From the NCBI GenBank assembly GCA_017459985.1, contig JAFUBX010000006.1, forward strand, positions 87,678 through 151,677: a stretch of DNA of 64,000 nucleotides. Direction: 5' to 3'. The DNA comes from Parasporobacterium sp. (lineage in GTDB: Bacteria > Bacillota > Clostridia > Lachnospirales > Lachnospiraceae). Positions 28,570 to 63,835 of the stretch are shown piece after piece. Position numbers and translations under genes: made by a program. Below the pieces are notes generated by a model. That model saw only the letters and a program-made list of their open reading frames with translations. It did not search any database and was not told the origin of the DNA. The stretch's first letter is position 1. Each line of letters begins with the position of its first letter.

Positions 28570-28877
28570 TTTGGGCCATCCAGGAAATAATCGTCATTTA
28601 CTATCCCTGTCATTTTTGCGAAAACAGGGATAGGATTTCCCAATAATTTCATATATAGTCCAGTTCAGGCTCTCTCAGGACCTTCATTTTGGACCATATT
28701 CTGAAAAATCGTCACTTTCTATCCCTGTTTTCAAAATCGAAACAGGGATATGATTTTCCAATAATTTCATATCTGGTCCAATCCGGGGCCTCTTCTACCT
28801 CTCAATTCGGACTGTATATGAAAAAATGCCAATTACTATCCCTGTTTTCCGGATCAGCGCAGGGATAGTAATTGGCA
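28570..28877 (+). repeat. Three tandem hairpin units, about 118-bp period
   Basis: CTATCCCTG starts at 28601, 28719 and 28836, each facing CAGGGATA downstream. The third copy is an 18-bp perfect stem: TGCCAATTACTATCCCTG (28827-28844) with its complement at 28860-28877. Units 1 and 2 share the flank CCAATAATTTCATAT, and unit 2 is enclosed by TTGGACC (28689-28695) and GGTCCAA (28775-28781). No convincing gene occupies the region. Confidence 0.8.
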
Positions 28878-29155: not shown

Positions 29156-29276
29156 GGAAGGCCTGGTATGGAGTTTACAGGCTTTTTTCAAATTTACCTT
29201 CCGGATTTTCGATGATTTGCCCGGAAAACGGAAGGTAGCATATGGAATTTATAAGCTTTTTCAGAATTTACCTTCC
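29156..29276 (+). repeat. Two 47-bp units bounded by GGAAGG and CCTTCC
   Basis: The units lie at 29156-29202 and 29230-29276 (period 74). Both contain TATGGA, a TTTA stretch and an AGGCTTTTT or AAGCTTTTT run before AATTTACCTTCCG. Their arms match those of the terminator at 28294-28349. The DNA between 28878 and 29155 shows no gene; it has only a small GAGAA/TTCTC hairpin near 29084. Confidence 0.65.
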
Positions 29277-49407: not shown

Positions 49408-50193
49408 ATGGAATTTCAGAAAAAGACATTGCTAAAAACCGTTGATCTGACCAAACGCTTCGGCGGACTGGTGGTCATGAACAAATTAAATATGCAGGTG
49501 ACGGAGGGAGAAGTCCACGGACTTTTAGGACCCAACGGAGCCGGCAAATCCACCTTCTTCAACCTGGTGACGGGAGTCTTAAAACCCACCTCCGGCAAGA
49601 TCTGGTACGACGATGTGATGGATATCACCAACGCCAAGCCCCATAAGGTGGCGAAGCTGGGCATCGGGAGGACCTTTCAGTTAAATCCTCTGTTCGGCGA
49701 TTTCACCGTGGAGGAAAATATCATGGCGGCCCAGTTCCTGCATCCCCATTCCACGGTGCTTCAGGTGTATTTCAATACCCCGACCTACCGAAAAAATGAG
49801 AAGGAAGCCCAGAAATCCACGAATGACATCATGGAAATGCTGAATATGACGGCAATTAAGGATGTCAAGGCGGCGGCCCTTCCCCACGGATACCAGAAGC
49901 TCCTCGGGGTGGCCAGGGCTCTGGCGGTTAAGCCGAAGCTCCTGATGCTGGATGAGCCCCTGGGCGGCATGAACCCGGAGGAGATCCATTTTACGCTGGA
50001 CGCCATCAACACCATGAACAAGGAGATCGGCATCACCATTCTGATCGTGGAGCACAATATGCAGGTGCTGGATATCTGCGATAACGTGACGGTCATTTCC
50101 TTCGGGGAGAAGATCTTTGACGGAACCGCGGAGGAAGTGCGGGACGATAAGACCGTCAATGAAGTGTATTTCGGAGGTGTGGAATATGACTGA
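49408..50193 (+). CDS. livG: Branched-chain amino-acid ABC ATPase LivG-like
   Basis: A 261-residue ABC ATPase: Walker A GPNGAGKST, the Q-loop segment GRTFQLNPLF, a signature region reading LPHGYQKLLGVARAL, Walker B LLMLDEPLGGMN, and the H-loop VEHNM. The signature lacks the usual SGG, as is common in LivG proteins. It overlaps livF by eight bases. Confidence 0.92.
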   Translation: MEFQKKTLLKTVDLTKRFGGLVVMNKLNMQVTEGEVHGLLGPNGAGKSTFFNLVTGVLKPTSGKIWYDDVMDITNAKPHKVAKLGIGRTFQLNPLFGDFTVEENIMAAQFLHPHSTVLQVYFNTPTYRKNEKEAQKSTNDIMEMLNMTAIKDVKAAALPHGYQKLLGVARALAVKPKLLMLDEPLGGMNPEEIHFTLDAINTMNKEIGITILIVEHNMQVLDICDNVTVISFGEKIFDGTAEEVRDDKTVNEVYFGGVEYD

Positions 50194-50938
50194 TATGAAT
50201 AGGAAATCCGGATCCAATATTCTCGAACTCCGGGATATCGATGTGATCTACGGCAAGTCGGTGGCGATCCATGATGTTAGCCTTAAGGTTCCGGAGGGGG
50301 AGATCGTGACCCTCATCGGATCCAACGGCGCCGGCAAATCCACCACCCTGAATACCATCGCCGGTATCGTAAAGCCTTCCAGGGGATCTGTGGTTTATAA
50401 AGGGGAGGATATTACGAAGCTTCCGACGGACAAGAGGGTCCAGATGGGACTGTGTCTGGTGCCGGAGGGGCGGCATCTGTTTCCGTTCCTGACGGTGCTG
50501 GAAAACCTTCAGCTGGGAGCCACCCAGCGAAAGGATTCCGCCGGGATCAAATCAGATTTTGACTTTGTGTATGATCTGTTTCCGAAACTGAAGGACCGCA
50601 GGTCTCAGAAGGCGGGGACCCTGTCCGGCGGCGAGCAGCAGATGGTGGCTATCGCCAGGGGATTGATGTCGGATCCGAAGCTTTTGTGTCTGGACGAGCC
50701 TTCTCTGGGCATTGCCCCCATTGTGATCGAGGAAATGGGCGTGGCCATCAAAGAGATCAACAAATCCAAGGGTACCAGTATCCTGCTGGTGGAGCAGAAT
50801 GTGCATCTGGCGTTCAGCACCGCGTCCTACTGCTATGCGCTGCAGGTCGGCGAGCTGATGGCGGAGGGAGACATTGAGAGCATCAAGAATTCTGACGTGG
50901 TCAAGAAGGCGTACTTCGGCGGCGACAAGGAAGCATAG
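50186..50938 (+). CDS. livF: Branched-chain amino-acid ABC ATPase LivF-like
   Basis: A 250-residue ABC ATPase: Walker A GSNGAGKST, signature LSGGEQQMVAIARGL, Walker B LLCLDEPSLGIAP, and the H-loop VEQNV. I chose ATG 50186 because GGAGG lies upstream and the protein then begins just before the ATPase domain; a longer frame upstream lies inside livG. It is the last gene of the importer operon. Confidence 0.92.
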   Translation: MTDMNRKSGSNILELRDIDVIYGKSVAIHDVSLKVPEGEIVTLIGSNGAGKSTTLNTIAGIVKPSRGSVVYKGEDITKLPTDKRVQMGLCLVPEGRHLFPFLTVLENLQLGATQRKDSAGIKSDFDFVYDLFPKLKDRRSQKAGTLSGGEQQMVAIARGLMSDPKLLCLDEPSLGIAPIVIEEMGVAIKEINKSKGTSILLVEQNVHLAFSTASYCYALQVGELMAEGDIESIKNSDVVKKAYFGGDKEA

Positions 50939-51105
50939 ATTCCAGGGCTGGCAGGATTGCCATAAAGTCCCCGTACTGCACAGATATTTAAGGTTTTATG
51001 GAATTGAGAAGTCTTTGAGTTCATACTCCCTGTGAAGGGACTCTGTTTTATTAAGCTATGGCAGAAAACGTATAGCTATGCATGAAAAACAGGAGGAAAT
51101 GCGTA

Positions 51106-51324
51106 ATGACGATGGAGAAGATGGTGATATTCCACAACCTTCTGGACGAGAATTTACGGCCAGCCATGGGACGCTGGTTCAGGAGATCCCATGTGCCGGA
51201 TGTGCTGACCCTGTGTCCCTGGACAAAACCGGTATCTGATGTACCGGCCGGCGGCAGTCAGGCGTATTCATTTCTGAGAATATATGCCCAGGAGGCGGAT
51301 ATTTTGAACTTTGTCATGTACTAA
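51106..51324 (+). CDS. Small ORF, possible truncated dimeric alpha/beta-barrel protein
   Basis: A 72-residue frame with AGGAGG nine bases before ATG 51106. The first half (EKMVIFHNLLDENLRPAMGR, then WFRRSHVPDVLTLCPWTK) looks like a conserved enzyme fragment of the EthD-like ferredoxin-fold type, but this is a guess. After TKP the sequence loses that character and ends in the first site of the 52-bp array. It may be a gene remnant interrupted or overwritten by the array. Confidence 0.4.
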   Translation: MTMEKMVIFHNLLDENLRPAMGRWFRRSHVPDVLTLCPWTKPVSDVPAGGSQAYSFLRIYAQEADILNFVMY

Positions 51325-51659
51325 TCGATGATGTTCAATTATACATGATGTAATTCGTTGTCAGATCATGTAAAAAATAGAAATGCAAAAATATACATGA
51401 CCAAATACATGATAATGTCATGTAAAAAACGGTAAAATTGATATTTACATGATTATAAACGCAATTTCATCATGTATAAAACGGAAAAGACGGAATATAC
51501 ATGATGCTTTTACGGAATTTATCATGTAAATAATGGGATAATCAAAATATACATGACAGATTTGCAGAATTCATCATGTAAAGAATGAATCACATGAATA
51601 ATACATGACGGGTCAGCCGCTTTTGTCATGTAAAAATGTTTTATTAATAAATTTACATG
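51315..51659 (+). repeat. Array of alternating TACATG/CATGTA sites, exact 52-bp period
   Basis: TACATG begins at 51342, 51394, 51446, 51498, 51550, 51602 and 51654. CATGTA begins at 51315, 51367, 51419, 51471, 51523, 51575 and 51627. Every step is exactly 52 bases. Each left site is followed by 19 bases and a right site, then 21 bases to the next left site. The usual extended forms are TTTACATGA or TATACATGA and TCATGTAAA. The bases between sites are AT-rich and not conserved. No gene lies in the array. Confidence 0.92.
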
Positions 51660-51707
51660 AAAATAGATAAAATGACCGGGGAGAGAACACTTAAAACAGC
51701 GGAAGGA

Positions 51708-51761: not shown

Positions 51762-51789
51762 TTTAAGCGGACCCGGTGGTCCGCTTAAA
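51762..51789 (+). other. Perfect 12-bp hairpin in the rimP leader
   Basis: TTTAAGCGGACC and GGTCCGCTTAAA flank a CGGT loop. A T-rich stretch (TATTGCATTTTT) follows after one base, so it could act as an attenuator. It ends 25 bases before the rimP ATG. Confidence 0.7.
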
Positions 51790-51814
51790 TATTGCATTTT
51801 TCAGGATAAATAAG

Positions 51815-52288
51815 ATGGCAAAGCAGAACAATATTGAGCAGCAGACGGAGTCTCTTCTGCAGCCGATTCTGGACCGGCATCAGTTTGAACTGGTGGATGT
51901 GGAATATGTAAAGGAAGGGTCGGACTGGTATTTAAGGGCGTATATTGATAAGGAAGGCGGGATCGCCGTAGATGACTGCGAGGCCGTCAGCCGGGAACTG
52001 GAGAAGGAACTGGACGCCCGGGACCTGGTCCCCGGAGCGTATATCCTGGAGGTCAGCTCCCCGGGACTGACCAGGGCCCTGAAGAAAGAGAAGGATTATA
52101 TCAGAAATCTCGGGAAGCCGGTGGAAGTGCATACTTATAAGCCCATCGAGGGGGCGAAGGAATTCATCGGCGATCTTCTCCGGTATGACAATGAAAGCGT
52201 CGTACTGGATATCGGGCCTGAAGAAACAGAAGAAATCACCATACCAAGAAGCAATATTTCGGTAATTAAACAATATTTTGTATACTGA
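51815..52288 (+). CDS. rimP: Ribosome maturation factor RimP
   Basis: A 157-residue protein that helps 30S subunit assembly. Typical phrases are FELVDVEYVKEGSDWYLRAYID, YILEVSSPGLTRALKK and the C-terminal EITIPRSNISVIKQYF. I chose ATG 51815, with AGGAT seven bases upstream. It heads the nusA-infB operon, as in most bacteria. Confidence 0.95.
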   Translation: MAKQNNIEQQTESLLQPILDRHQFELVDVEYVKEGSDWYLRAYIDKEGGIAVDDCEAVSRELEKELDARDLVPGAYILEVSSPGLTRALKKEKDYIRNLGKPVEVHTYKPIEGAKEFIGDLLRYDNESVVLDIGPEETEEITIPRSNISVIKQYFVY

Positions 52289-52312: not shown

Positions 52313-53581
52313 ATGGCAAGTGAATTAATGGAAGCAATAGAAATCCTGGTAAAAGAGAAGAACATCAGCAAGGAGTCCATCCTTTCTTCGATCGAAAGCT
52401 CTCTCGTAACCGCATACAAGAATCAGTACAAGAAAAAAGATGATTCGGTACTGGCAGCGGAAAATGTATTTGCCCGGATCGACGAGGAGACCGGCGAGTA
52501 TTTCGTTTATGCCGAGAAGGAAGTCGTGGACGAAGTGGAAAACGGACTGACGGAGATCTCTTTGAAGGATGCACAGGAGATCTACCCCGGCTGCCAGGTG
52601 GGAGATATCGTAAGGCTCCAGGCACGGGACAAGGATTTCAGCCGGATCGCCACCCAGAATGCAAAGAACGTATTGCTTCAGAACCTTCGCGAGAAGGAAA
52701 AGAATAATGTATTTGAAGAATTCCAGGCCAAGGAAAAGGAAGTGGTCACTGGTATCGTACAGCGGTTTAACGACAACAATATCGTGATCAATCTGGGGAA
52801 AGCAGACGGTATTCTGAACGAGAACGAGCAGGTCAGCTCCGAGCGTCTGCACATCAATGACCGGATCCGGGTATTTGTGCTGGAGGTTCGCAATTCCCGC
52901 AAGTCCTTAAGGATCCTGGTGTCCAGAACTCATCCGGACCTGGTACGGAAATTATTTGAATCCGAAGTGGCGGAGATCAAGGACGGAACCGTGGAGATCA
53001 AAGCCATTGCCAGAGAGGCGGGCAGCCGGACCAAGATGGCGGTCTGGTCCAACGACCCGGATGTGGATCCGGTGGGCGCTTGTGTCGGAATCAACGGTAT
53101 GAGAGTCAATACGGTTGTCTCCGAGCTCCGGGGAGAGAAGATCGATATCATCAACTGGTCCGACAATCCGGCGATCCTGATCGAGAACGCCCTGAGTCCG
53201 GCCAAGGTCATCACGGTGCTCGCGGATGATGAGGAGAAGACTGCGACGGTCATCGTTCCGGATTATCAGCTGTCCCTGGCCATCGGCAAGGAAGGACAGA
53301 ACGCGAGACTGGCTGCCAAACTGACAGGATTCAAGATCGATATCCTCAACGAGACCCAGGCTGCCGATATTCTGGAAGAGCTGTACCAGGGCACCTACGA
53401 AGGCGAGGACGAATATTACGAGGACGGCGAGTATTCCGAAGAAGAGTACGCAGACGCCGGGTATTCCGACGAAGAATATGCGGACGGAGAGTACGAAGAG
53501 GGTGAATACGCCGAGGAAGAGTACGCAGACGGAGAATCTTCGGATGATCCGGAAGCATCTCAGGAAGGCGGGGCGGAATAA
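52313..53581 (+). CDS. nusA: Transcription factor NusA with long acidic tail
   Basis: A 422-residue elongation and antitermination factor: N-terminal RNA-polymerase-binding domain (about 1-130), S1 domain, and two KH domains (phrases VGACVGINGMRV and AIGKEGQNARLAAKL). Gram-positive NusA usually ends soon after KH2, near 350-370. Here 60 further residues are repeats of EEYADGEY type, extremely acidic and Tyr-rich, recalling by different sequence the acidic C-terminal domains of enterobacterial NusA. RBS AGGAGG precedes ATG 52313. Confidence 0.95.
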   Translation: MASELMEAIEILVKEKNISKESILSSIESSLVTAYKNQYKKKDDSVLAAENVFARIDEETGEYFVYAEKEVVDEVENGLTEISLKDAQEIYPGCQVGDIVRLQARDKDFSRIATQNAKNVLLQNLREKEKNNVFEEFQAKEKEVVTGIVQRFNDNNIVINLGKADGILNENEQVSSERLHINDRIRVFVLEVRNSRKSLRILVSRTHPDLVRKLFESEVAEIKDGTVEIKAIAREAGSRTKMAVWSNDPDVDPVGACVGINGMRVNTVVSELRGEKIDIINWSDNPAILIENALSPAKVITVLADDEEKTATVIVPDYQLSLAIGKEGQNARLAAKLTGFKIDILNETQAADILEELYQGTYEGEDEYYEDGEYSEEEYADAGYSDEEYADGEYEEGEYAEEEYADGESSDDPEASQEGGAE

Positions 53582-63685: not shown

Positions 63686-63726
63686 AAGGTTTGAAATCAG
63701 ATGCCCCGAAGCGGGAACGCCCCGAT

Positions 63727-63788
63727 GGTGGCTGCTTCGAAATGGGAACGCTCCGAAGGTGGCTGCTTCGAAATGGGAACGCTCCGAA
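63727..63788 (+). repeat. 31-bp direct repeat, two copies
   Basis: Two identical 31-base units (63727-63757 and 63758-63788) begin GGTGGCTGCTTCGAAATGGG; a third partial copy follows at 63789. They lie between the MFS gene and its terminator. Confidence 0.85.
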
Positions 63789-63835
63789 GGTGGAACGCCC
63801 CCCGAAGGCATCGATTGACTAAATCAGGACTCACG

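Follow-up and report, generated by a model that had tools for sequence, protein, structure and literature searches.

Dispersed intergenic arrays of inverted YRCATGA sites at fixed spacing, putatively protein-binding, in a clade of Parasporobacterium

Introduction

Plasmid centromere and iteron arrays and the matS and Noc sites are single-locus rows of short sites, or else isolated sites scattered over a chromosome. The passages of PMC2817692 drawn on here describe BIMEs as regularly spaced REPs in alternating orientation, found both solo and clustered, for which protein-binding roles have been proposed. The REPs themselves appear in the corresponding passages of PMC2817692 and PMC3733652 as palindromic sequences that have a compact stem and carry GTAG or CGTC at the head. 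The BOX elements of Streptococcus, as presented in the part of PMC3049150 used here, are intergenic mosaics whose tandem inner modules vary in number and stand between end modules. None of the titles and abstract openings retrieved from the literature, on which alone this statement is based, describes arrays of the kind reported below.

The array in the window

Parasporobacterium belongs to the Lachnospiraceae. The window, by which we mean the whole stretch of 64,000 nucleotides analysed here, holds at 51314..51660 (no strand assigned) an array of 14 sites, or seven units, in which TCATGTA and TACATGA alternate; we refer to this core as the T class. The TCATGTA sites lie at 51314, 51366, 51418, 51470, 51522, 51574 and 51626 (51314+52k, k=0-6) and the TACATGA sites at 51342, 51394, 51446, 51498, 51550, 51602 and 51654 (51342+52k, k=0-6), so that steps of 28 and 24 bp alternate with zero exceptions. 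The first unit, TCATGTA-N21-TACATGA, spans 35 bp (51314..51348, again without strand) and recurs each 52 bp, with 17-bp linkers between units. This confirms the first-pass annotation, which had described 14 alternating sites with a 52-bp period and no slip. Its count of seven TACATG holds for the in-register sites, but an eighth lies out of register within a linker (51406..51411, + strand). The window as a whole contains 10 TACATGA and 8 TCATGTA, among them the 7 + 7 in-register sites of the array. The longest in-register chain has 14 sites, against a maximum of 1 when the window was simulated 200 times with a first-order Markov model.

Between the cores, little is shared. The central parts of the spacers, defined as the spacers minus the 4 bases adjoining each core, are 35-37% identical from unit to unit, where random letters with this composition give 30%. 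GC content is 27% in the array and 53% in the window. Judged by its anatomy, and in agreement with the earlier reading, the array is not a CRISPR, which would have repeats of about 24-37 bp, unique spacers and cas genes; the conserved stretch here is 7 bp with weak flanks. Like-oriented sites are 52 bp apart, but the half-step is not exactly 2.5 turns, because the distance from one site to the next is 28 and 24 bp in turn; 26 bp separates the two kinds of dyad.

Upstream of the array lies a gene (50117..50938, + strand) that we take, from its translation, to encode an ABC transporter ATPase of the branched-chain amino-acid (livF-like) type. An 80-aa open frame at 51082..51324 (+ strand), which has no match in Pfam and whose stop falls within the first site, is probably not a gene. 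Downstream, and outside the element, a rimP-like gene known from its translation (51776..52288, + strand) heads what is presumably a rimP-nusA-(ORF)-infB cluster, these names being taken from translations. Elsewhere in the window there are short tandem repeats at 53423-53537, within the 3′ portion of the nusA-like gene, and at 63713-63793, where a 31-bp unit is present in 2.6 copies.

A dispersed family in the source genome

When the array was searched against the window's own genome (G000; 3.53 Mb in 131 contigs, 94.75% complete), similar arrays were found on many contigs. The pattern TACATGA-N17-TCATGTA occurs at 45 places, against 0 for the reversed control, and a chain scan of the extracted stretches yielded 13 T-class arrays of 10 to 14 sites each. 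A second core, CGCATGA (the C class), has the same geometry: TCATGCG-N19..23-CGCATGA is present at 49 places (control 0), two of them on contig C37, a duplicate of part of contig C12. C-class sites form rows of up to 14 sites and also solo 35-bp units. The duplicated loci (L077 on C12 and L080 on C37) share 6.4 kb at 99.98% identity, which reflects either assembly redundancy or a recent duplication; L080 is excluded from the step counts, chain tables and array-pair identities, while its two places are counted in the 49 above and in the 119 given below. These arrays thus constitute a clade-restricted, multi-copy family of dispersed intergenic elements whose main core classes are TACATGA and CGCATGA.

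Since most arrays begin with a reverse site and end with a forward site, the unit is the 35-bp inverted pair, with 17-bp linkers between pairs. Steps are exactly 28 or 24 bp in 142 of 150 cases in the T arrays of the source genome, in 72 of 76 in its C arrays and in 33 of 34 in four arrays of a relative, G004. These counts leave out nine solo C units (seven at 28 and two at 27) and, at array ends, five steps leading to flanking C units (52, 46, 37, 28 and 28). They are also to be read with the search in mind: the cores served to find the arrays, and the chain scan tolerates small deviations only, a larger slip terminating a chain, so irregular arrays would escape detection. Across 46 chains, some shortened by degenerate units, the number of units ranges from 2 to 7 in the source genome (6 units in 10 of its 25 chains), is 3, 3, 3, 4, 5, 5, 5, 5 and 6 in a second relative, G002, and in G004 is 3, 3, 3, 4, then 5 seven times, and 6. 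Two pairs of G002 arrays each match one G004 locus and were therefore probably split by assembly.

The site profile, from which the mosaic array L036 was omitted, as it was from the hairpin-pairing tables, consists of the non-palindromic core YRCATGA and, to its left and right, AT-rich flanks that are conserved even at the outermost sites. In L036, C units stand at both ends and T units inside; L040 is built likewise with one end degenerate, and most T arrays have no C ends.

Occurrence and gene context in related genomes

In the genus, TCATGYR-N21-YRCATGA has matches in six of 14 genomes, with 119 in the source genome, 56 in G004, 31 in G002 and one in each of three others; the reversed control gave 0 in all 14. 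The T-class pattern alone is found in two of the 14 (45 in the source genome, 12 in G004). Abundance is therefore confined to three of the 14 genus genomes examined. In a family sample of 299 genomes, which includes the source genome and one other member of the genus, 38 have a match, and all of the 298 other than the source genome (119) have three or fewer; the reversed control gave 0 or 1 per genome. A two-unit pattern with a looser core matched only the source genome among 392 genomes sampled from the order, a sample to which G002 and G004 do not belong. A scan of a named genome collection returned three stretches, all from Parasporobacterium sp. RGIG5915, the window's own records possibly being excluded there. 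The window array has no match in 72,556 plasmid records, in 50,697 phage records or in viral contigs.

No array precedes rimP in G002, G004 or a third relative, G010, and in G002 and G004 the upstream gene differs too, so at this slot the array was lost or never present. The array is dispensable, being absent at rimP in these three relatives and lacking altogether in most members of the genus. The initial reading had held that irregular spacing or free loss in relatives would speak against selection on geometry: spacing is regular wherever arrays exist, but the rimP slot is empty in the three relatives.

These results also bear on the idea that the arrays are ordinary operators which control the adjacent genes, here rimP-nusA-infB. 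The window array does stand in front of rimP, as had been pointed out, and the array of locus L100 lies directly before a gene start. However, the neighbours of the arrays (enzymes, transporters, GTPases, gyrase, translation factors and others) have no common theme, judged from 62 of 74 proteins at the arrays of the source genome and four G004 arrays, and from 43 of 49 at further G002 and G004 arrays. The rimP setting is thus one of many unrelated gene contexts, a functional link to it is unsupported, and, with no array at rimP in the relatives, we consider control of adjacent genes very unlikely.

Copying, divergence and orthologous slots

Among the T arrays, five that lie at different loci show 80-95% identity across 242-368 bp. 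In nine of their ten pairwise comparisons, mismatches affect 2-5 of the 70 core positions and 29-37 of the 172 spacer positions, corresponding to 3-7% core divergence against 17-22% spacer divergence; in the tenth pair, L035/L036, cores differ at 2/70 and spacers at 6/172. The counted columns of the five-array alignment are gap-free, and the one inserted base, in L037, lies between them. Gap openings are also rare relative to mismatches, with 29/1061 in 26 array pairs against 115/1132 in 33 pairs formed by the other repeats of these loci, a control that includes repeats differing in the number of a 61-bp unit and in which, as among the arrays, pairs are not independent. Both this shortage of indels and the recurrence of one spacing in many arrays, in two core classes and in three species, support the earlier proposal that selection acts on geometry while the spacers drift.

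The arrays are copied between loci, with turnover. What L036 and L040 have in common is the whole stretch between, and including, their terminal C units. The T-class array L100 of G004 and the C-class array L081 of the source genome lie behind the same gene, at 86.6% identity. Between G002 and G004, the arrays L135 and L148 agree at 241/243 positions, with 166/199 and 122/129 in the flank windows there; L131 and L145 have six and five units, L131 lying behind gyrB, with gyrA, in the same tally, next by position; and L132 and L146 differ by at least one whole unit.

L137 in G002 and L099 in G004 are one orthologous locus. Its right flank is identical at 193/199 positions and its left coding flank at 76/79 (96-97%), and each of the two arrays fits five units into 243 bp. 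Within the sites, the TCATG letters agree at 50/50 positions and the YR letters at 0/20, since all ten sites have CG in G002 and TA in G004. Spacers agree at 113/173 positions (0.653), compared with a median of 0.447 for 528 array pairs. As arrays at different loci of G002 and G004 reach a spacer identity of 0.644 (L132/L144), and copies within a genome are higher still, a history of in-place rewriting and one of replacement by a different array look the same at this locus.

Fixed spacing could in part be inherited through duplication of units. In the extreme, neutral form of this account, a 52-bp unit underwent tandem duplication followed by drift, and the spacing is regular by inheritance alone. 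The units of some arrays are indeed near-identical (L033), and rows of 2 to 7 units are what such duplication would leave. Nevertheless, between copies the cores change less than the spacers, gaps are few, and one geometry is maintained across two core classes and three species. We therefore regard purely neutral duplication as improbable, and favour selection on spacing and cores, as far as comparison of copies can indicate it.

Folding of the arrays

Both strands fold better than shuffled sequences (z -5.3 and -7.5), which might suggest a structured RNA, in which rows of hairpins are transcribed along with the neighbouring genes. This folding, however, follows from the array being a row of exact inverted repeats. 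Beyond the cores, pairing was not consistently in excess on either the N17 axis (60 hairpins) or the N21 axis (62 hairpins), with z of 1.9-2.5 at a few positions and down to -4.0 at others, and in 34 mixed-word arrays the agreement between partner arms did not exceed that of shuffled words (244/324 against 236.5, z 1.5; 205/276 against 202.4, z 0.5). Rfam gave five weak matches, none reaching a family's cut-off, and arrays are also found between divergent genes (L031). With stem covariation not significant, the RNA of repeated hairpins considered in the first-pass annotation is not supported, and we rate it as highly improbable. The lack of stem covariation, together with the non-palindromic conserved flanks, would fit sites read by protein in double-stranded DNA.

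Signs of mobility

A more serious alternative is that the family is an interspersed repeat of a purely selfish kind, comparable to a MITE or a BIME. Its sites would then be just the recognition sites of an enzyme encoded at another locus, a transposase or a nuclease, and the arrays would bring the host no benefit. The copying of whole arrays between loci, the likeness of L036 and L040 from terminal C unit to terminal C unit, the patchy distribution and the presence of other dispersed repeats beside C units would all be expected of such a repeat. On the other hand, 35 arrays give no signal of target-site duplications (summed match 24, against a shuffled mean of 37.8), and a MITE, with its terminal inverted repeats and target-site duplications, was rejected on this count. 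No Y1 transposase lies beside the sites at the seven inspected of 11 Y1 loci in the genus, and the two Y1 matches of the source genome do not adjoin arrays. Nor is there a transposase among the 25 commonest of the 97 and of the 87 neighbour families tallied, a depth at which a rare transposase could be hidden, save for one tyrosine recombinase, whose gene adjoins the T array at L038. We consider pure selfishness a possibility of minor but appreciable weight.

Flanking gene pairs are co-directional (the window, L033, L035), divergent (L031) or, by choice of ORF, convergent (L091). At L111 (contig C199 of G004, a genome with arrays), a 279-aa open frame has a weak Y1 transposase match, and scattered core-like words occur nearby.

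Other repeats share the genome. A second dispersed family consists of 37-bp inverted repeats, TGCCGAAAA...TTTTCGGCA, often 61 bp apart, at 1903, 13339 and 13400 of the window and at L077, L080, L082, L085, L087, L088, L092, L093, L095 and L096; in several loci these repeats are near C-class units. Because its 61-bp period is not a whole number of turns, repeat periods in this genome need not be helical. A third family, of inverted repeats of about 105 bp with ends CAGGGATA...TATCCCTG, is present at 28625 and 28743 of the window and at L032, L081 and L096, and inverted repeats CGGAAGGTA...TACCTTCCG at 29229 of the window and at position 4571 of L081.

A putative protein assembly on the arrays

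The best explanation of these observations, which we hold with moderate confidence and on sequence evidence, is that the family consists of clade-restricted intergenic arrays bound by a putative protein that assembles cooperatively at many chromosomal places. The element is a row of 1 to 7 units at 52 bp, and each unit holds two inverted copies, 28 bp apart, of a site that is non-palindromic and about 13-16 bp long (a YRCATGA core with AT-rich flanks). A sequence-specific DNA-binding protein, or two related ones, would read the cores, one subunit to each core. Like-oriented sites would lie about five helical turns apart, and the fixed steps of 28 and 24 bp could let neighbouring subunits or dimers touch along one array. 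Such contacts may in turn drive cooperative assembly, so that a single compact complex covering about 240-370 bp forms at each of many chromosomal locations. Whole arrays and units would be copied, by recombination or by an enzyme acting in trans, and so be spread and rewritten.

The multi-site protein-DNA assembly named among the original suggestions thus stays the best reading, and we favour a complex that serves as a chromosomal platform over purely selfish spread. More tentatively, the arrays could point to a new protein, perhaps in two versions (for TACATGA and CGCATGA), that bridges or folds the chromosome on arrays of fixed geometry in one clade of gut bacteria, with slots able to switch version while length and spacing are kept. 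The slot shared by two species in which all ten cores are switched may be a natural experiment in the joint change of a protein and its dispersed sites. The identity of the putative protein would tell a chromosome organiser from an enzyme of mobile DNA.

Comparison with known repeats and protein-site arrays

Known dispersed bacterial repeats are mostly foldable palindromes. Here, spacing and short cores seem to be selected and nearly all the rest drifts, and therefore the binding geometry may be readable from the sequence itself. To judge from the portions of the literature cited in the Introduction, the family resembles the BIMEs (built of REPs, in gammaproteobacteria and others) in being dispersed and intergenic, with regular spacing, alternating orientation and both solo and clustered forms. 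It differs in having a non-palindromic core with AT-rich flanks, arranged as an inverted pair that encloses 21 bp; furthermore, no GTAG or CGTC head was seen by eye at array ends, and the Y1 transposase (RAYT) does not adjoin these sites at the seven inspected of 11 loci. L036 and L040, with C units at the ends and T units inside, may recall BOX elements, in which tandem boxB modules lie between boxA and boxC ends. BOX modules are reported to be foldable, whereas the arrays here keep short cores and spacing only. In layout, then, the family appears to be like BIME or BOX without the hallmarks of REPs. With plasmid centromeres and iterons, and with matS and Noc sites, it would share short protein sites in rows or dispersed; unlike in those systems, entire rows recur here at many chromosomal loci.
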